This document shows positions 22,158 to 37,312 of a DNA stretch of 64,000 nt, piece after piece. The notes under the pieces are model-generated. The model was not told where the DNA came from, ran no database searches, and saw only the letters and a list, made by a program, of their open reading frames with translations. A program made the translations under genes and the position numbers. Origin of the DNA: ANME-2 cluster archaeon. Its GTDB lineage: Archaea; Halobacteriota; Methanosarcinia; Methanosarcinales; Methanocomedenaceae. The DNA lies in contig JAAXOC010000044.1 of assembly GCA_014237145.1 (NCBI GenBank), positions 1-64,000 of the forward strand. Direction: 5' to 3'. The stretch's first letter is position 1. The number at the start of each line of letters is the position of its first letter.

Positions 22158-23081
22158 TTGACAAAAATTACAGTCGTAGGTGCCGGATTTGTGGGTGCCA
22201 CCACAGTCCAGCGTATCGCAGAGAAGGAACTGGGCGATGTGATGATGACAGACATTATAGATGGCATGCCCCAGGGTAAGGCACTGGACCTGATGGAATC
22301 AGCACCAATTGTTGGTTTTGATGTGAATGTGGTAGGGACCAATGATTACAAGGACATGCAGGATTCTGACATTGTTGTAATAACAGCCGGAATTGCCAGA
22401 AAGCCGGGAATGAGCAGGGATGATCTTATAAAAACCAACAGTAAAATAGTAAGCGAGGTCAGTGAGAACATCCAGAAATATGCACCCGACTCCATTGTTA
22501 TTGTAGTAACCAATCCTCTCGATATAATGACCCATGTAGCCCTCATGAAGACGGGTTTCCATCCCGGCAGAGTGATCGGCATGAGCGGGGTACTGGATTC
22601 TGCCAGGTTCGCTACCTTTGTGTCTATGGAACTGGGCTGTTCTACCAGAGACGTTGATGCCATGGTACTTGGCGGACACGGGGACTTAATGGTACCGCTG
22701 CCCAGGCACACTACAGTGTCAGGTATACCAATCACTGAACTTATGGACGAAGCTGCCATTGACAGGCTGGTGCAGCGTACAATCAACGGTGGTGCCGAGA
22801 TCGTAGAACTGCTAAAGACCGGCAGTGCATTCTATGCGCCCTCTGCAGCCATCACTTTAATGGTGGAATCCATTGTACGGGACCAGAAACGCATCCTGCC
22901 TGTCGCAGCCTATATGTACGGGCAGTACGGCTATGAGGAAATATACCTGGGCGTGCCTGTGAAACTGGGACGGATGGGTGTGGAAGCGGTAATAGAATTA
23001 GACCTTACTGAACCTGAACAGGAGATGCTTGCCCGGTCGGCAGAGGCTGTGAAAGAAGCTATTTCAACACTGGATTTATGA
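22158..23081 (+). CDS. mdh: Malate dehydrogenase
   Basis: A 307-residue NAD(P)-dependent enzyme of the LDH-like MDH family. The Rossmann motif is VGAGFVGA (7-14), the substrate loop IARKPGMSRDDL carries the Arg pair, and the catalytic His is in LGGHGD. The TTG start at 22158 is supported by AGGAGG 10 nt upstream (GATCAGGAGGATTCAAA). Its stop overlaps the fumarase ATG. It supplies malate to both fumarase and malic enzyme. Confidence 0.95.
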   Translation: MTKITVVGAGFVGATTVQRIAEKELGDVMMTDIIDGMPQGKALDLMESAPIVGFDVNVVGTNDYKDMQDSDIVVITAGIARKPGMSRDDLIKTNSKIVSEVSENIQKYAPDSIVIVVTNPLDIMTHVALMKTGFHPGRVIGMSGVLDSARFATFVSMELGCSTRDVDAMVLGGHGDLMVPLPRHTTVSGIPITELMDEAAIDRLVQRTINGGAEIVELLKTGSAFYAPSAAITLMVESIVRDQKRILPVAAYMYGQYGYEEIYLGVPVKLGRMGVEAVIELDLTEPEQEMLARSAEAVKEAISTLDL

Positions 23082-24661
23082 ATGCATTAAAAAGCCAGGT
23101 AGTGGCAGATGCTGTAGAAGAGATAATCAAACAGGCAGAGAACAGACTGCCTGTTGATGTGATCAAGGCTTTGTTTGGTGCCATGGATGCAGAAACCGAT
23201 AAAACAGCCACGTCCCAGCTCGATGCCATACTGGAGAACATATCTATTGCAGATGACAGGGCTATCCCAATGTGCCAGGATACTGGAATCCTGGTGTTCT
23301 TTGTCGATATTGGCAGGGACGCCCGTATTGGTTTTGACCTGGAGTGGGCCATCCGGGAGGGTGTGAAGCAGGCGACAAACAGCGTGCCTTTGCGTCCCAA
23401 TGCAGTGGAGCCCATGACAAGGCTAAACTCAGGTGACAATACAGGGGATGGCCTGCCTGATATCAATTATTCCTTTAAGGACGGTAAGGCCATCACTATC
23501 ACAGTGGCCCCGAAAGGTGCGGGCTCAGAGAATATGAGTGCTTTCAGGATGTTAAAGCCTTCACAGGTGGGTAGTGTCAAGGATTTTGTGGTCGAGACCG
23601 TGCAGAAGGCCGGAGGTATGCCATGCCCGCCCATTATTGTGGGTGTTGGTATTGGCGGCAGTTTTGACAAGTCAGCCAGGTTGGCAAAGCGCTCGCTGCT
23701 GCGGAGTCTGGGAGATATGGATGAGTATGAACTGGATATACTGAAAGCTATTAATTCACTTGGTATCGGTCCCATGGGACTGGGCGGCAGGACCACTGCA
23801 CTGGCTGTGCATGTGGAAAAAGCTCACTGCCATACAGCATCGCTACCTGTGGCCGTGAATATACAGTGCTGGGCCAACCGACACGCATCAGTGACCCTGG
23901 ATGCAGGACATGACCTGGCTCACGTGACTGAACAATACAAAACCAAGTACCACTTAACCGAACAGCACACGAACAAGCACCACCCGGCCAAGCAGAACAT
24001 AACCAAGCACCAACTAGCCGAGGAAAACATAACCAAGCACCAACTAGCCGAGGAGAACACGAACAAGCATCACCTGACTGAACAGCATAAGACCGGGCAG
24101 GACGTGCCCCATCACCTGACCACACCCCTTACCCGGGATGATATTATGGAATTGCAGGCAGGGGACATAGTTTACCTATCAGGCACCATATATACGGCAA
24201 GGGATGAAGCACACTTAAGGATTCTGGAACTGACTAACGAGGGTAAGCCGCTGCCATTTGACCTGGACGGTGCTGCCCTTTATCACTGCGGGCCGCTGAT
24301 GCAGAAAGACAAAGATGGCTGGAGGACAGTTGCAGCAGGACCTACTACCAGTGCCAGGATGACTGACATGACGCCCCAGGTGCTTGACAATTACAATGTC
24401 AGGGCCATCATTGGTAAAGGTGGCATGAAAAACATTGCACCAGTCCTGGAGGACAGGTGCGTGTACCTGGCATATACGGGTGGATGTGCGGCTCTGGCTG
24501 TGGATATGATAAAGGATGTCAGGGACGTGCACTGGCTGGATCTGGGGATGCCGGAGGCTGTGTGGGTGCTGGAGGTTGAGAACTTCGGGCCGCTGGTTCT
24601 GGGAGTGGATGCAAAGGGCAGGGACCTCTATGAAGAGGTACTTGGATTGGCTTTGAAATGA
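23078..24661 (+). CDS. fumA: Class I fumarate hydratase, fused alpha-beta with a repeat linker
   Basis: A 527-residue oxygen-sensitive [4Fe-4S] fumarase. Residues about 1-276 are the alpha part (in archaea usually a separate gene) with C66 in MCQDTG, CPPIIVGVGIGGSFDKSA and AHCHTASLPV; residues about 345-527 are the beta part with LYHCGPLM, AAGPTTSARM and IIGKGGM. Between them is a 60-residue linker of six 10-residue units such as NITKHQLAEE, Lys/His/Glu-rich and unlike any fumarase segment. The ATG overlaps the mdh stop (ATGA). Fused class I fumarases exist in bacteria and eukaryotes, but this linker looks like a recent tandem expansion. Confidence 0.92.
   Translation: MNALKSQVVADAVEEIIKQAENRLPVDVIKALFGAMDAETDKTATSQLDAILENISIADDRAIPMCQDTGILVFFVDIGRDARIGFDLEWAIREGVKQATNSVPLRPNAVEPMTRLNSGDNTGDGLPDINYSFKDGKAITITVAPKGAGSENMSAFRMLKPSQVGSVKDFVVETVQKAGGMPCPPIIVGVGIGGSFDKSARLAKRSLLRSLGDMDEYELDILKAINSLGIGPMGLGGRTTALAVHVEKAHCHTASLPVAVNIQCWANRHASVTLDAGHDLAHVTEQYKTKYHLTEQHTNKHHPAKQNITKHQLAEENITKHQLAEENTNKHHLTEQHKTGQDVPHHLTTPLTRDDIMELQAGDIVYLSGTIYTARDEAHLRILELTNEGKPLPFDLDGAALYHCGPLMQKDKDGWRTVAAGPTTSARMTDMTPQVLDNYNVRAIIGKGGMKNIAPVLEDRCVYLAYTGGCAALAVDMIKDVRDVHWLDLGMPEAVWVLEVENFGPLVLGVDAKGRDLYEEVLGLALK
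23906..24085 (+). repeat. 30-nt tandem repeat encoding the fumarase linker
   Basis: Six 30-nt units run in frame from 23906. The fourth and fifth (23996-24025 and 24026-24055) are identical except for the last base; the outer ones are diverged (GHDLAHVTEQ, YKTKYHLTEQ, HTNKHHPAKQ, NTNKHHLTEQ). The gradient points to growth by slippage or unequal exchange from the middle. Confidence 0.85.
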
Positions 24662-24829
24662 AACGGTTCACGATGTATTGAACCCTCCAATTAGTGATAT
24701 GCAAATCATCATACTCATACTCTTTGAAAAGCTCTTGTATTTATTATTTTAATTTTTATTTCACTTAAATTTATTGAATTGTGACAGTATCTCCAAAACA
24801 TTTCCAATTTTCGTATCAGATCTATGAGG

Positions 24830-24847
24830 ATCTGGACCTCTCCAGAT
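24830..24847. promoter_or_regulatory. Perfect inverted repeat ahead of the CoA-ligase gene
   Basis: ATCTGGA and TCCAGAT flank a CCTC loop, about 98 bp before the ligase start. GATC words on either side extend the symmetry. It could be an operator or the terminator of the fumarase operon. A TATA-like ATATATTTAAATATA lies between it and the start. Confidence 0.35.
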
Positions 24848-24944
24848 AGATCCAAACGGAGGATCTTTTCTATGACTCTGTAAACCAATATATTTAAATA
24901 TAAAAAAAACAAAAAAACCAGTACAATCATTTTCGGAGGGAATT

Positions 24945-26501
24945 ATGTCCATTGACCTTGATAATCTACCAGAACAATTAAATGCTGCTAGCATATTTAT
25001 CGATGAGAACATTCGGGATAAAAGAGGGGATAATATTGCGATATACTATGGTGATGAAATACTGACTTATCATGATGTTTTTAATAAGGTAAATAAAACA
25101 GGTAATGCCCTGAAGAATTTGGGAGTAAATGTAGAAGAAAGAGTAATGCTACTATTATTCGACTCACCTGAGTTTGTTGCCACTTTTTTCGGAGCAATGA
25201 AAATTGGTGCGGTTCCGATTCCCATCAATACAATGCTGAATTCGAAAGATTTTCAATATTACTTAAATGATAGCGGCGCTAAGACATTAATTGTTCAAAG
25301 CACACTGTTAAAAGAAATAGAAAACATCAAGGATGATTTAAAATATCTAAAAAATATTATCGTTGTCGGAAGTGAAGAAACTAAGTATCAATCGTTTGAT
25401 GATTTTATAAAAAATGAATCCAGTGATCTGGAAGCAGCAGAGACTAACAAAGATGATGCCGCATTCTGGTTGTATAGTTCAGGGAGTACTGGATCTCCAA
25501 AAGGAGTCGTGCACTTGCACCATGATATGTTCTATTCCAGTGATCTCTATGCAAAAAATGTTCTTGGAATTACTGAGAAAGATATTACATACTCAGTAGC
25601 AAAACTCTTTTTTGCATACGGACTTGGAAATAGCCTTTATTTTCCATTCAGGGTTGGAGCTTCAGTAGTCTTATTTCCAGATAAACCTGATCCAGATACG
25701 GTTTTCCATATAATTGAAAAATATAAACCTTCCCTTTTTTATGGCGTTCCAACACTATATACAAAAATGATTCAAAGCATGGAAAATATGGATAAGAAAC
25801 CAAATATGGATTCACTTCGCCTGTGTATTTCAGCAGGAGAACAGTTGCCTGAAGAAATATACCACAAGTGGAAAAATCACACCAGTCTGGAAGTACTGGA
25901 TGGAATTGGCTCCACAGAAGCTTTGCATATCTTTATCTCGAATTTTAAAGAGAACGTTAAACCTGGAAGTAGCGGTCAAATAGTTCCAGGGTATGAGGCT
26001 AAAATTGTAGATGAGAATGAAATAAATGTTGAAACAGGTGAAATTGGCAATTTATTGATAAAAGGAGACAGTAACGCACCCTATTATTGGAGAAATCATG
26101 TAAAAACTAAAGAAACAATGATTGGGGAATGGCTTCATACTGGAGATAAATATTATATGGATTCAGATGGATATTTTTGGCATTGTGGAAGATCTGATGA
26201 TATGCTGAAAGTGAATGGAATGTGGGTATCTCCAATAGAAATTGAAAATATTTTGATGTCTCATGAGGCGGTTTTAGAGTGTGCGGTGGTAGGTAACTTT
26301 GGTGAGGATAAACTTGTTAAGCCCAAGGCTTTTGTAGTATTGAAGGAAGGCTTCAGTGAAGCTGAAGAACTTAAAGATGAATTGAAAAAACATGTTATTG
26401 ATAGGACAACGCCTTTTAAATATCCAAGGTGGATAGAGTTTATTGATAGTCTGCCAAGAACAGCAACTGGAAAAGTACAGAGGTTTAAATTGAGATGTTG
26501 A
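24945..26501 (+). CDS. AMP-dependent acyl-CoA ligase, benzoate-CoA ligase family
   Basis: A 518-residue adenylate-forming enzyme. The P-loop YSSGSTGSPKGVVH (about 176-189), the aromatic-acid-ligase segment FFAYGLGNSLYFPF, GSTEALHIF, the LHTGDKY motif, GRSDDMLKVNG and the C-terminal catalytic Lys in TATGKVQRFK are all present. The FAYGLGN stretch is typical of benzoate and aryl-CoA ligases, but exact substrate is unknown. GGAGG precedes the ATG. The gene is AT-rich and overlaps the HMGR-like gene by 7 bp, so the CoA thioester it makes is probably handed to that enzyme. Confidence 0.88.
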   Translation: MSIDLDNLPEQLNAASIFIDENIRDKRGDNIAIYYGDEILTYHDVFNKVNKTGNALKNLGVNVEERVMLLLFDSPEFVATFFGAMKIGAVPIPINTMLNSKDFQYYLNDSGAKTLIVQSTLLKEIENIKDDLKYLKNIIVVGSEETKYQSFDDFIKNESSDLEAAETNKDDAAFWLYSSGSTGSPKGVVHLHHDMFYSSDLYAKNVLGITEKDITYSVAKLFFAYGLGNSLYFPFRVGASVVLFPDKPDPDTVFHIIEKYKPSLFYGVPTLYTKMIQSMENMDKKPNMDSLRLCISAGEQLPEEIYHKWKNHTSLEVLDGIGSTEALHIFISNFKENVKPGSSGQIVPGYEAKIVDENEINVETGEIGNLLIKGDSNAPYYWRNHVKTKETMIGEWLHTGDKYYMDSDGYFWHCGRSDDMLKVNGMWVSPIEIENILMSHEAVLECAVVGNFGEDKLVKPKAFVVLKEGFSEAEELKDELKKHVIDRTTPFKYPRWIEFIDSLPRTATGKVQRFKLRC

Positions 26502-27673
26502 ATAGTGAAGGCATGGATAAGATCCCCCGTTCAATCACTGATAATTACTCTGGGGAAATTGTCGAAGAAAGGATTAACTGGCTAAAGAAAAAGACGGAAC
26601 TTGAACTTTCATGCATAACAGAATATTCTATGTCTCCACAGGATACAAGAGGTAATATTGAAAATTTTATTGGGATTGCACAGGTTCCGGTAGGCTTAGC
26701 CGGTCCCATTAAAATAAACGGAGACCATGCAAAAGATCATTTTTTTATTCCATTAGCTACAACAGAAGGTGCGCTGGTCGCAAGTTATAATAGAGGTATG
26801 AAAATCATTTCTGAGTCAGGAGGTGCAAATCCCAGACTTTTGAATGATGAAACATATATTGGAGTGATCATTGATTTTAATGACCTTTCCGAAGTTATTG
26901 AATTTTTTAACTGGATTGATGACAATTTCAATAAATTGAAAAAAGTCGCAGAATCTACCACAAAACATGGAAAACTGCGACATATTGAAAATTTTGTCCA
27001 GGGAAAACGTGCATTGTTAAATTTCTATTATACAACCGGGGATGCAAGTGGTTTAAATATGATTACAGTTGCAACAAAAGCTGTAATAGATATCATTATG
27101 AAAAAGACAAAAGCCCAAAAATACATCCTGCCTGTTACTTTTAATGATAAAAAATCCACGTCAATGAATGTCATAAAAGGCAGAGGAAAAAAAGTCTCAG
27201 CAGATGTAGTAATCCCAAGAAAGATGGTAGAAAAAGCATTACGAACGACTCCGGAAGAGATGTCTCATAGTTGCTACTCCAATTATCTTATGGCAGGTGC
27301 AACCATTGGAACTTTAACATATAACCATCATTTTTCGAACGGGCTTGCAGCCCTTTTTATTGCATGTGGTCAGGATGTGGCTTATGTTGCCGAATCATCA
27401 GTTGGTTCCACAATAATGGACACAACAGGAGACGGGGACCTTTATGTAAGTGTCAATTTACCTGATCTGATAATAGCTACTGTGGGGGGAGGCACTGGTC
27501 TTGGAACCTCAAAAGAATATCTGGAATTGATTGGATGTTATGGAACCGGAAAAGTTAATAAATTTGCAGAGATAATTGCGGCAGTTTTATTGTCAGGTGA
27601 AATTTCCATATGGGGTTCAATAGTCTCAGGAGAATTTACACAGGCACATGACAGATATGGAAGAAATAGGTAG
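26495..27673 (+). CDS. Divergent HMG-CoA reductase homologue
   Basis: A 392-residue class I HMG-CoA reductase-fold protein. The family segments ENFIGIAQVPVGLAGP (57-71), ATTEGALVASYNRG (88-101), NDKKSTSMN (217-225), ACGQD (290-294) and the C-terminal HDRYGRNR are there, so the catalytic set E91, K219, D294 and H385 is intact. However, DAMGMN of canonical enzymes is DASGLN (183-188) and the MTRxP loop is absent. This points to a paralogue reducing another CoA thioester, although a diverged mevalonate-pathway enzyme cannot be excluded. It is translationally coupled to the acyl-CoA ligase and AT-rich like it. Confidence 0.8.
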   Translation: MLNSEGMDKIPRSITDNYSGEIVEERINWLKKKTELELSCITEYSMSPQDTRGNIENFIGIAQVPVGLAGPIKINGDHAKDHFFIPLATTEGALVASYNRGMKIISESGGANPRLLNDETYIGVIIDFNDLSEVIEFFNWIDDNFNKLKKVAESTTKHGKLRHIENFVQGKRALLNFYYTTGDASGLNMITVATKAVIDIIMKKTKAQKYILPVTFNDKKSTSMNVIKGRGKKVSADVVIPRKMVEKALRTTPEEMSHSCYSNYLMAGATIGTLTYNHHFSNGLAALFIACGQDVAYVAESSVGSTIMDTTGDGDLYVSVNLPDLIIATVGGGTGLGTSKEYLELIGCYGTGKVNKFAEIIAAVLLSGEISIWGSIVSGEFTQAHDRYGRNR

Positions 27674-27878
27674 TGTACTACTTTATGTCTGGCATTTTAA
27701 TTTTAAAAAGTGACGTTCCCAGGGATTTTGCTAACACTCAAATCCGGGGCATCTCGAGGGTGCATAAGAAGAAATAGGTTTATGTTTTTTATATAATTGG
27801 AATTCTTCATATCAAGTTACGATAAATTAATAATCGATAAATAGAAATACTATATAGATTAGAGTTGTTGAAGTTATT

Positions 27879-28622
27879 ATGAATTCTACAGATGAGATAT
27901 TTACTAATCCACCACTTCACGAAGTAGCTTTTGAAGTTCGATTTCCACATTTATTTTACCTGAATCAAAGAATTGGAGAATTTCAATTAGAAATAATGGA
28001 TGATTTTCCTAAATCTTCACAAATTTTTGAACAAGCATTTGCCATTGATGAGAAGGGGGTTACAGTTAAAGATAATGAAAACCCAATACCAAGTTGGCAT
28101 TTTGAAAATGAGTCAGGGAAAACTAAAATTACTGTTCATTCAAATAAATTAAATATCATTTCCAATGAATATAAATCATATAATCATCCTTCTGAAAAAA
28201 AATTTAGGGATATTATAGAACAAATAGTTACACTTTTTATTAAACAGGTTCCTATTAAAAATTTTACGAGACTTGGTATAAGATATATAGATTATTGCCC
28301 ATTGGAAAAATTAGAAAATGAATACTTTAAAAATTTTTACACACCTCTTTTTGACATTGACAGATATAAATTGGAAGATATTCTAGAAAATAGAATGTTA
28401 TTTAGAGTAAGAAAAAATGATTATCAGCTCTTACTTCAATCTGCTATTAGGGAAATTGATGACTCTTACAAATATATTATAGATTTTGATGGTTATGCCA
28501 TCAATGTTGAAGCGAGTAATTTCATAAATGTTACTGATGATTTAAAACGTCTAATAAAAAAGGAATTTCTTTCTAATATTACTGAGAACTTTAAAGAATA
28601 TATGAGAAGGACAAATGAATAA
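27879..28622 (+). CDS. TIGR04255 family protein
   Basis: A 247-residue protein with the family's N-terminal NPPLHEVAFEVRF and the central RLGIRYIDYCPL motif, and a C-terminal Phe-rich helix (NITENFKEYM). TIGR04255 proteins are scattered among bacteria and archaea without known function, often beside other uncharacterised small genes. Here it overlaps the next gene by 8 bp in a three-gene AT-rich unit. A defence or toxin-antitoxin-like role is only inferred from the distribution and context. Confidence 0.7.
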   Translation: MNSTDEIFTNPPLHEVAFEVRFPHLFYLNQRIGEFQLEIMDDFPKSSQIFEQAFAIDEKGVTVKDNENPIPSWHFENESGKTKITVHSNKLNIISNEYKSYNHPSEKKFRDIIEQIVTLFIKQVPIKNFTRLGIRYIDYCPLEKLENEYFKNFYTPLFDIDRYKLEDILENRMLFRVRKNDYQLLLQSAIREIDDSYKYIIDFDGYAINVEASNFINVTDDLKRLIKKEFLSNITENFKEYMRRTNE

Positions 28623-28941
28623 GATAAAGAATATCACGGCTAGTTTAATTGTTGAATCTGAAAATACTTCTGATATTGATTCAACGGGGGGGAGTATATT
28701 ATTTCAAAATTCAGAAAAAAAAGAGTTTGAGGATGATATAGGGGTTGGTTTTGAAGAAATAGAAGGATTACACATTCAATATTTAGAATTCGGAAAATAC
28801 AAAATCGGTTTAATTGAAAATGATAATCATGAAGTTGTGGGCATTAAGAGTGTCGAAATAATTAAAAAATTGTATTCTGATGAACAAATAAGCAAAAGAT
28901 ATAATTATTGGGATGTTGAAAAATATTATGAGGATGATTAA
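28615..28941 (+). CDS. Small acidic protein of the TIGR04255 unit
   Basis: A 108-residue protein, acidic, with no membrane segment and no recognised motif. It overlaps the TIGR04255 gene by 8 bp and precedes the 197-residue gene by 12 bp, so it is almost certainly part of the same transcript. Its size and charge would suit an antitoxin or adaptor, which is a guess. Confidence 0.6.
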   Translation: MNKIKNITASLIVESENTSDIDSTGGSILFQNSEKKEFEDDIGVGFEEIEGLHIQYLEFGKYKIGLIENDNHEVVGIKSVEIIKKLYSDEQISKRYNYWDVEKYYEDD

Positions 28942-28953
28942 ACGGTTTTTACT

Positions 28954-29547
28954 ATGTTCTATAAAGTCCATCTCGATCAAATTATTAGACAAGGAGATAT
29001 CATTAAAGGATTGATTAGTCCTGGTGTGATTACTTATAAATTTCTTGATATTGATAATTTTGATCATCCAGATCCTTCTTTTTCTATTGATGTTCGATTT
29101 AATCTAGTTGCAGTGATTACACCGTGTTGTACAATTCAGAAAGCAGATTACATATCATTATGTCCTTTAAATCCACTTTTAAAATCTATTAACAAAAATC
29201 CATATTTAATTGAAGATCCTACTAGATTGAATCTAAAAGTGAAACCAGAAAATTGTGTACCCCCGGATGTTTGGAAAGATAAGTTACCTCCTGATGAAAA
29301 ACAAAGAAGAATTGAATTGGGATCTTCATATATTTATTTTCAATATTTTGTTCTTGAAAAACATAATGGCATTATTAACAATGACATGATGATTGATTTT
29401 AATAACATTTTTAATATAAGAAGAAAAGACTTAGGTAACAACAATGAAAAAATGTTGCCTTCAAAGTTACTCCAATTGAGTGACGAAACAAGAGAAATGT
29501 TGCGCCATAAATTAAGTGCCTATTATTTAAGAGTGCCTGAAGAATAA
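28954..29547 (+). CDS. Third protein of the TIGR04255 unit, unknown
   Basis: A 197-residue protein. The strand LVAVITPCCTIQKADYISLCPL (about 50-71) has a hydrophobic beta strand ending in a CC pair with a nearby Cys, a pattern seen in small proteins annotated as hypothetical next to TIGR04255. The rest is Asn/Lys-rich with a C-terminal helix. No family is named with confidence. Followed by a copy of the dispersed repeat. Confidence 0.6.
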   Translation: MFYKVHLDQIIRQGDIIKGLISPGVITYKFLDIDNFDHPDPSFSIDVRFNLVAVITPCCTIQKADYISLCPLNPLLKSINKNPYLIEDPTRLNLKVKPENCVPPDVWKDKLPPDEKQRRIELGSSYIYFQYFVLEKHNGIINNDMMIDFNNIFNIRRKDLGNNNEKMLPSKLLQLSDETREMLRHKLSAYYLRVPEE

Positions 29548-29633
29548 TAATCCTCACGTTTAAAAATGTAATTTATAAACTCTTAATTATTTTTTAAATT
29601 CTAATGTAGAAGGATGCGCATGTTTGGCCATTT

Positions 29634-29700
29634 TGCAGTCACCGGTATACCCCGGACAAGATGTAACGCAGCCTGTATAGCGATTTTTCAGGTGTAATAG
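29634..29700 (+). repeat. Dispersed intergenic repeat, copy B
   Basis: Shares CGGTATACCCCGGA, GCCTGTATA and GCG-x-TTTTTCAGG with copy A at 1293-1360, by eye about three quarters identical over 65 bp. It lies 87 bp after the TIGR04255 unit and a few bp from the 3' end of the pilin gene. Confidence 0.5.
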
Positions 29701-35884: not shown

Positions 35885-37312
35885 ATGGTAAGGTTTTTTA
35901 ACCGCACACATGATCTGTCAATCCTTGAAGATTTATACCGCGCCCCGTCCTCATCACTTGTAGTACTCTATGGGCGCCGCCGTGTTGGGAAAACAGAGCT
36001 TGCTAAAGAGTTTATCAAAAACAAGAAAAGCATATATCTTTTTATTGAGACAAAACCTGAAAAACTTCTCTTAAAGGACCTGGAAGCTTCCCTTGAAAAG
36101 ATAATGGATTTCAGGCCCAGGCTGGACGACTGGGATGATTTCTTTAATATCATCTTCAAGATCAAGGAAAAAATTATAATCGTGTTTGATGAGTTCCAGA
36201 ATTTTAGAAAAATAGACCCACAATTCTTCTCGAAATTCCAGAAATACTGGGATGAACATCACAGGGAATCACGTCACATGTTCATAGTCATAGGTTCATA
36301 CGTGGGCATGATAAAAAGAATATTCCAGGGAGATAAAGAACCGCTGTTCGGACGCGCCACATTACTTTATAATCTTATGCCGTTTGGTTTTTCAGATAGT
36401 CATACATTTTTGCGCGGTTTTTATGATCTGGATACAAAAGAAGCAATGAAATTCTACTTCATTCTCGGCGGCGTGCCAAAATATTTACTTCTTGCCGGAG
36501 AATTCGGCACACCAGATGCCAATAAGACATTTAAAAAACTCTTTATCGACACCCGGATACTTATGGAAGAAGGTATGAACATACTAAAACTTGAGTTCGG
36601 CACTGAACACAAAAGCTATTTTTCAATACTTGAAGCCATCGCATCAGGCAAAGCAACGCCTAAAGACATATCAGATTATACAGGCATACAAGCTTCCACA
36701 GTCTCAAAATACCTGCATGAACTGCTCCATGACTACGAGATTGTAAAAAAGGAAGAACCTGTGATACAAACAAAGGCAAGAAGCGGCAGGTATTTCTTAA
36801 ATGATAATTTCTTTAATTTTTGGTTCAGGTTTATCTATAAGAATTATGGAACATTCGAAATAGACCCTGATATGGGGGTGGAACTTGTCAGGAAGGATTC
36901 CAATACCTATTTTGGTACAGCTTTTGAAAGTGTGGCAAAGGAATTCCTTATTGCAATAAATAAAAAAGATGGAAAAGATGGAAAAGATGGAAAAGATGGA
37001 AAAGATGGAAAAGGCAGAGAAGATAGGAAAGGTGGACTCCCATTCAGGTTCTTAGAAATAGGCAGGTGGTGGGATAAAGATGTTGAGATCGATTTGATCG
37101 GTTTTAATAAAACTACTCGTGAAATCCTGTTTTGTGAAGTAAAATGGAAAAATCTTACCAAAAATGAGGCAGAACAAATAATGCGAAAACTAAAAAAAAA
37201 AGCAGTAAAAGTGAAGGGTAAGTGGATAGAACATTACTGCCTGATCGCAAAAGAGATCGGGCAAAAAGAAGAACTTGATTTCCTGGCTTTCGATATTGCA
37301 GATATGGAATGA
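35885..37312 (+). CDS. ATPase with DUF234, archaeal ATPase family
   Basis: A 475-residue P-loop protein: Walker A YGRRRVGKTEL (about 29-39), Walker B IIIVFDEFQNF (about 98-108), a winged helix around DISDYTGIQASTVSKYLHEL, and a C-terminal DUF234 nuclease-like domain with EIDLIGF and FCEVKW (a PD-(D/E)XK pattern). These archaeal ATPases are abundant and of unknown function. Between the DUF234 halves is a tandem KDG repeat, five 9-nt units, absent in relatives as far as I know. The gene is divergent from mscS. Confidence 0.82.
   Translation: MVRFFNRTHDLSILEDLYRAPSSSLVVLYGRRRVGKTELAKEFIKNKKSIYLFIETKPEKLLLKDLEASLEKIMDFRPRLDDWDDFFNIIFKIKEKIIIVFDEFQNFRKIDPQFFSKFQKYWDEHHRESRHMFIVIGSYVGMIKRIFQGDKEPLFGRATLLYNLMPFGFSDSHTFLRGFYDLDTKEAMKFYFILGGVPKYLLLAGEFGTPDANKTFKKLFIDTRILMEEGMNILKLEFGTEHKSYFSILEAIASGKATPKDISDYTGIQASTVSKYLHELLHDYEIVKKEEPVIQTKARSGRYFLNDNFFNFWFRFIYKNYGTFEIDPDMGVELVRKDSNTYFGTAFESVAKEFLIAINKKDGKDGKDGKDGKDGKGREDRKGGLPFRFLEIGRWWDKDVEIDLIGFNKTTREILFCEVKWKNLTKNEAEQIMRKLKKKAVKVKGKWIEHYCLIAKEIGQKEELDFLAFDIADME
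36968..37012 (+). repeat. Five GATGGAAAA units in the DUF234 ATPase
   Basis: Five exact 9-nt copies encode (DGK)5. The unit is a multiple of three, so copy-number change keeps the frame. It sits in a surface loop just before the C-terminal nuclease-like core. Confidence 0.9.

Follow-up and report, generated by a model that had tools for sequence, protein, structure and literature searches.

A benzoate-CoA-ligase-family gene overlapping that of a divergent HMG-CoA reductase homologue in a probable anaerobic methanotroph: a candidate acid-reducing pair

What would a homologue of HMG-CoA reductase (HMGR) reduce when its gene overlaps that of an acyl-CoA ligase, and could the answer be the thioester that the ligase makes? 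The question is raised by two intact genes in the window, by which we mean the whole stretch of 64,000 nucleotides of archaeal DNA that was analysed, and whose features are collected in Table 1. The 7-bp overlap seen by the sequence-only reading is confirmed, and translational coupling of the two genes is likely. Their GC3 is 0.28-0.29 against 0.49-0.66 in the flanking genes, and the composition of the pair is foreign.

Table 1. Features of the ligase-reductase locus, in window coordinates
Feature	Position	Strand	Remarks
AT-rich island, ~4.9 kb	24705..29637	.	missing in congener G002
Mobile unit (promoter region, ligase, reductase)	24785..27685	+	~2.9 kb; DNA common to G036
TATA-like box TTTAAATA	24893..24900	+	~45 bp upstream of ligase start; sequence reading; conserved in G036
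Ribosome-binding site GGAGGG	24935..24940	+	upstream of ligase; sequence reading
Benzoate-CoA-ligase-family acyl-CoA ligase	24945..26501	+	intact ORF, 518 aa; TIGR02262 624.8 bits
Ligase/reductase overlap, 7 bp	26495..26501	+	reductase ATG at 26495 inside ligase; ligase stop ends at 26501
Divergent HMGR homologue	26495..27673	+	intact ORF, 392 aa; PF00368 367 bits
Catalytic E91 (human E559)	26765..26767	+	alignment with human HMGR
Lost M-x-R-x-P loop, residues 118-124 (D-E-T-Y-I-G-V)	26846..26866	+	R590 equivalent is I122
Altered, shortened cis-loop ending D218-K219-K220 (K219 catalytic)	27128..27154	+	Ser684 lost
N263 in place of human K735 (salt bridge to HMG carboxylate)	27281..27283	+	alignment; role of K735 from PMC9500038
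Catalytic D294 (human D767)	27374..27376	+	alignment with human HMGR
Catalytic H385 (human H866)	27647..27649	+	alignment with human HMGR
Passenger ORFs: TIGR04255-family protein and two ORFs without family	27879..29547	+	outside the unit shared with G036

The transfer of an AT-rich cassette, which had been proposed from the letters of the DNA, is supported by this composition and by comparison with two other genomes. In a genome of the same genus (G002), window positions 24705 and 29637 are joined, with 3 bp between the matches, which means that the island was either inserted here or lost there, the site alone leaving the direction unproven. In a genome of the ANME-2c family (G036, family f2), window positions 24785-26075 and 27571-27685 are matched at ~90% DNA identity among different flanks; the limits of these matches agree with those of the ligase-reductase unit and exclude the passenger ORFs that lie downstream, and the presence of pieces of the same unit among other neighbours implies that the unit moves. 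In G036, the reading frame of the ligase is disrupted by a frameshift and a stop and runs into a tail without homology, and, since the fragments lie on separate contigs that both end inside the unit, it is only by extension that we infer the adjacency of the two genes there. The empty site and the G036 fragments indicate that ligase and reductase travel together, and their horizontal acquisition as a unit is highly probable. The passenger ORFs, of which the TIGR04255-family protein scores 88.5 bits, have a GC3 of 0.17-0.21, below that of the pair, and are therefore perhaps of other origin.

A ligase of this type was found in 3 of the 186 genomes of the order, across three families; that of G073 (family f5) is 75% identical and open up to the end of a contig that stops inside the gene. 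The search for the pair in other genomes, which had been suggested as a check, yielded the pieces of both genes in G036, but intact adjacency in the window genome only, and the phylum-wide search (394 genomes) gave no second intact reductase at E <= 1e-96. No relative of either protein was found in the viral contigs searched, the plasmids searched contained only distant HMGR-like proteins and ligases of <60% identity, the island genes gave no PADLOC match of weight for a defence function, and no flanking direct repeats were found at the island ends. A Liv-type ABC transporter beside the G036 fragment was considered as a link to the Liv-type genes near archaeal ligases of 49% identity and was discarded, only the ATPases matching (27-36% identity). 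In the congeners G004 and G005 (L110, L112), other DNA is present just downstream of the fumarase gene, so that this spot seems prone to insertion or rearrangement. In this genus, the fumarase gene itself (window 23078-24661) is a single ORF whose alpha and beta parts are connected by a linker of TEQHTNKHH... repeats and whose length varies among congeners; sister genera have a separate ORF matching each part. Farther downstream (window 35885-37312), an ATPase matches a PADLOC defence candidate (PDC-S27, 136 bits) and carries a DGK repeat run near its end.

The ligase contains both domains of an adenylating enzyme (PF00501, 275.6 bits, and PF13193, 73.6 bits, by profile search), and its full-length score against the benzoate-CoA ligase family TIGR02262, a family-level model, lies well above the cut-off of 375.25. 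Among PDB entries it is matched best by anthranilate- and benzoate-CoA ligases (E as low as 2e-151), and it keeps the stretches FFAYGLGN and LHIF, aligned with segments of benzoate-CoA ligase 2v7b that we take to be the aromatic pocket. The ligase is under purifying selection (pN 0.14 and pS 0.77 against G073; dN/dS ~0.18 against G036). By these resemblances, an aryl acyl-CoA is our best guess for the substrate of the pair. The window ligase differs from the benzoate-CoA ligases of its family (2v7b, 4eat) in its partner, which is a reductase homologue and not the ring-reducing benzoyl-CoA reductase pathway.

The window genome encodes McrA, whose placement bears on the host, taken for a methanogen by the sequence-only reading. 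The McrA of the window's family (f1) is nearest to 9qqt and 9qr1, then to 1e6y; family f2 can be assigned to ANME-2c, as its McrA nearly matches 9qm5, which is named ANME-2c, and G073 has an McrA similar to 9qqt, presumably of Methanoperedens type. Family f1 is neither of these and is, as a best guess by elimination, ANME-2a/b, so that the assignment as a methanogen is probably wrong: within the ANME-2/Methanosarcina order, to which it belongs, the host probably falls among the anaerobic methanotrophs of the ANME-2 group. In ANME, a benzoate-CoA ligase has been assayed which makes benzoyl-CoA and accepts benzoate, 3- and 4-hydroxybenzoate (PMC10581246); this BadA (MBC2697931.1) is counted in the same TIGR02262 family, and its likeness to the window ligase is described at family level. 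No benzoyl-CoA reductase was found in the surveyed ANME genomes (PMC10581246), so that no further conversion of the CoA ester is known there; in the window genome, a search for the PF06050 class of these reductases gave a single match of 82.8 bits. The idea of a route so far undescribed in methanogens has to be narrowed: the benzoate-CoA ligase activity of ANME is already published (PMC10581246), and it is the reductive step that would be new. Our literature search found no paper on an HMGR-ligase pair. We know of no member of the HMGR family that converts an aroyl-CoA to an aldehyde or an alcohol.

The reductase homologue matches PF00368 from end to end (positions 2-368 of 368) and scores 356.9 bits with TIGR00533, the class I HMGR equivalog, whose cut-off of 441.8 it does not reach. 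The retention of E91, K219, D294 and H385 is borne out by the alignment with human HMGR, in which K219 and K220 correspond to K691 and K692, and in which D690, N755 and the CoA residues S565, N567 and R568 are also kept. With the class I enzymes it shares the fold, the catalytic Glu/Lys/Asp/His, most of the CoA contacts and the ENxIG dimer motif, and its predicted structure (pLDDT 81) has HMGR 6hr7 as best PDB match (TM 0.84); it departs from them in its HMG pocket and in its apparent operon with a ligase. In HMGR, the residues that bind the HMG group include S684, D690, K691, K692, K735 and N755 (PMC7503714); K735 forms a salt bridge to the terminal carboxylate, and R590 and S684 are among the conserved polar contacts of bound statin (PMC9500038). 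None of R590, S684 and K735 is kept in the window protein, which has I122, a residue other than Ser, and N263 in their places. The cis-loop is one to three residues shorter, the number varying with the alignment, and belongs to the low-confidence parts of the model (pLDDT <50 at 215-227 and 271-277), which makes the pocket geometry uncertain. The MTR loop is indeed absent, as had been read from the sequence, and among 32 aligned homologues the whole M-x-R-x-P loop is lost in the window protein only, M, R, A and P being present in 31/31 others; these make up 4 of the 8 columns that are altered here and shared by 30 or more of the 31 other homologues. The DAMGMN cofactor motif, held to be missing, is rather altered, DASGLN keeping D, A, G and N with both Met (M655/M657) changed. 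HMG is probably not the substrate of this HMGR-like enzyme, because the residues expected to hold its carboxylate and hydroxyl are replaced.

A canonical HMGR elsewhere in the genome had been named as the thing to look for, and it is present: a second PF00368 protein (457.6 bits) carries the full MTR, SGN..DKK and K735 set and clusters in the tree with the HMGRs from the rest of the order. Since this separate enzyme can cover mevalonate synthesis, the window copy is not needed for lipids, and it is very probably not the HMGR that serves the mevalonate pathway of this cell. The best tree places the window protein on a long branch (1.14-1.26) next to a bacterial clade of HMGR-like proteins (support 91); the tree that forces it together with the order's canonical HMGRs is 32.7 log-likelihood units lower and is not rejected by the AU test (p-AU 0.133), so that a recent duplicate of the cell's own canonical HMGR is disfavoured by the tree without rejection. 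Of the paralogue first proposed, the existence of a second, canonical HMGR holds, but the best tree gives a divergent lineage near bacterial proteins and not a recent paralogue; a position outside the archaeal mevalonate-pathway enzymes is found in that tree, the grouping with them remaining unrejected.

The divergent group, as classed here, consists of 43 homologues from a scan of genome contigs (L003-L038, L041, L043, L044, L046, L049, L052, L054), mostly bacterial, L049 being haloarchaeal. A Lys at the K735 position occurs in none of the 43 and Ser684 is missing in 36, while all 43 have the catalytic residues, which places the window protein in or beside a larger HMGR-like set; judged from these residues, the substrate of the set may differ from HMG-CoA. 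The nearest relatives of the window protein are divergent bacterial proteins (Chloroflexota, Bacteroidota, Alteromonas, Acidobacteria; L003 and others) of up to 47% identity, likewise without K735. They keep M-Q/N-R-A-P and mostly GDAAGQNM, whereas the window protein has lost that loop and, with it, R590, and so appears one step beyond the divergent set. Some of the bacterial relatives adjoin or lie near AMP-forming ligases (L014, L015, L020, L016, L107), and no neighbour other than these occasional ligases proved to be widely conserved. L107, an annotated plasmid relative, is named 'hydroxymethylglutaryl-CoA reductase'. As for other genomes of the order, those of the ANME-2c family (G020, G024, G036, G046, G055, G058) give no class I HMGR match except a fragment in G036, and several have only weak class II-like matches, so that the HMGR of this family seems to be of class II; in family f5, class I and class II are often both present.

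An altered HMG pocket, kept catalysis and an aryl-CoA-producing partner in an apparent operon are the observations from which we infer substrate and product, aroyl-CoA reduction being the simplest reading. In this model, the ligase, whose family is established, would join a benzoate-type acid, ATP and CoA to give an aroyl-CoA. The HMGR-like enzyme would hold the CoA thioester in the same L-domain as HMGR, and its conserved Glu/Lys/Asp/His would, by the chemistry of the HMGR family, move a hydride from NAD(P)H to the aroyl-CoA, giving an aldehyde or, if a second hydride follows, an alcohol. The pair would thus be a split anaerobic counterpart of carboxylic acid reductase (CAR), with a role in detoxifying or using aromatic acids, or in making an aryl aldehyde or alcohol. 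It resembles CAR in the ATP-dependent activation of the acid followed by NAD(P)H reduction; CAR is a single adenylation-carrier-reductase chain acting via a carrier-bound thioester, whereas the window pair consists of two ORFs, the ligase with PF00501 and PF13193 only and the reductase with PF00368 only, and would use free CoA. That the reductase homologue is an aroyl-CoA reductase partnered with a benzoate-type ligase is a proposal we put forward with some reserve, as slightly less than probable. In a genome of another family of the phylum (G422; L142:7626-10041), the gene behind a 74% identical ligase, at a distance of 25 bp, encodes a SAM-dependent methyltransferase, and there is no close homologue of the reductase, which means that this ligase type does not need the reductase and can serve other pathways; the methyltransferase is possibly a different use of the activated acid.

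Three other readings have to be weighed against aroyl-CoA reduction. As the ligase family has wide specificity, the pair might act on a non-aromatic CoA thioester, of a branched or cyclic acid for example, and provide an alcohol for a lipid or a secondary metabolite. The family-level scope of TIGR02262 would allow it, and on an Alteromonas plasmid an HMGR-like gene has in its vicinity genes of biosynthetic appearance (AMP-binding, SDR and iron-containing redox enzymes); we nevertheless consider it unlikely, the best solved relatives of the ligase being all anthranilate- or benzoate-CoA ligases, with the 2v7b pocket-aligned stretches kept, and the neighbours of a 49%-identical archaeal ligase, a PPDK_N protein and a UbiD-type decarboxylase, forming with it a set characteristic of phenol degradation. 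The decayed copy in G036, the G422 ligase without reductase and the long branch would suit a protein that binds a CoA ester without reducing it, or an early relic of a decaying mobile unit in which the ligase alone is useful. This is about equally unlikely, since the ORF is full-length, no catalytic residue is missing, the predicted fold is intact, and only eight conserved columns are changed, half of them in one substrate loop and not scattered.

The reductase homologue could also be a working second HMGR, or an enzyme oxidising mevalonate, next to a metabolically unrelated ligase. Its catalytic tetrad, the D690/K692 equivalents, the CoA residues and the fold agree with such a role, and class II HMGRs, whose HMG-binding pocket is unlike that of class I, offer a precedent for a different pocket. 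The replacement of R590, S684 and K735 together with the shortened cis-loop, the score below the TIGR00533 cut-off, the canonical HMGR already present, the overlap of the genes and the pieces of the same DNA unit in a second family all argue the other way, and make this the least likely of the three.

In conclusion, the HMGR family, among the best-studied enzyme families, is treated as HMG-CoA-specific. Our wider proposal, held more tentatively than the aroyl-CoA reductase itself and resting on two proteins, is that one of its members has switched to aroyl-CoA and would form, with a benzoate-CoA ligase, a mobile acid-reducing module in anaerobic methanotrophic archaea, giving aromatic acids a reductive fate other than that of the ring. 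If this is true, an HMGR re-tooled for another acyl-CoA breaks the rule of HMG-CoA specificity, and many bacterial 'HMG-CoA reductase' annotations become doubtful. Could such a reduction be the next step for the benzoyl-CoA of ANME, whose ring these archaea are unable to reduce according to the published gene survey? If so, the ligase-reductase pair suggests what that step may be.
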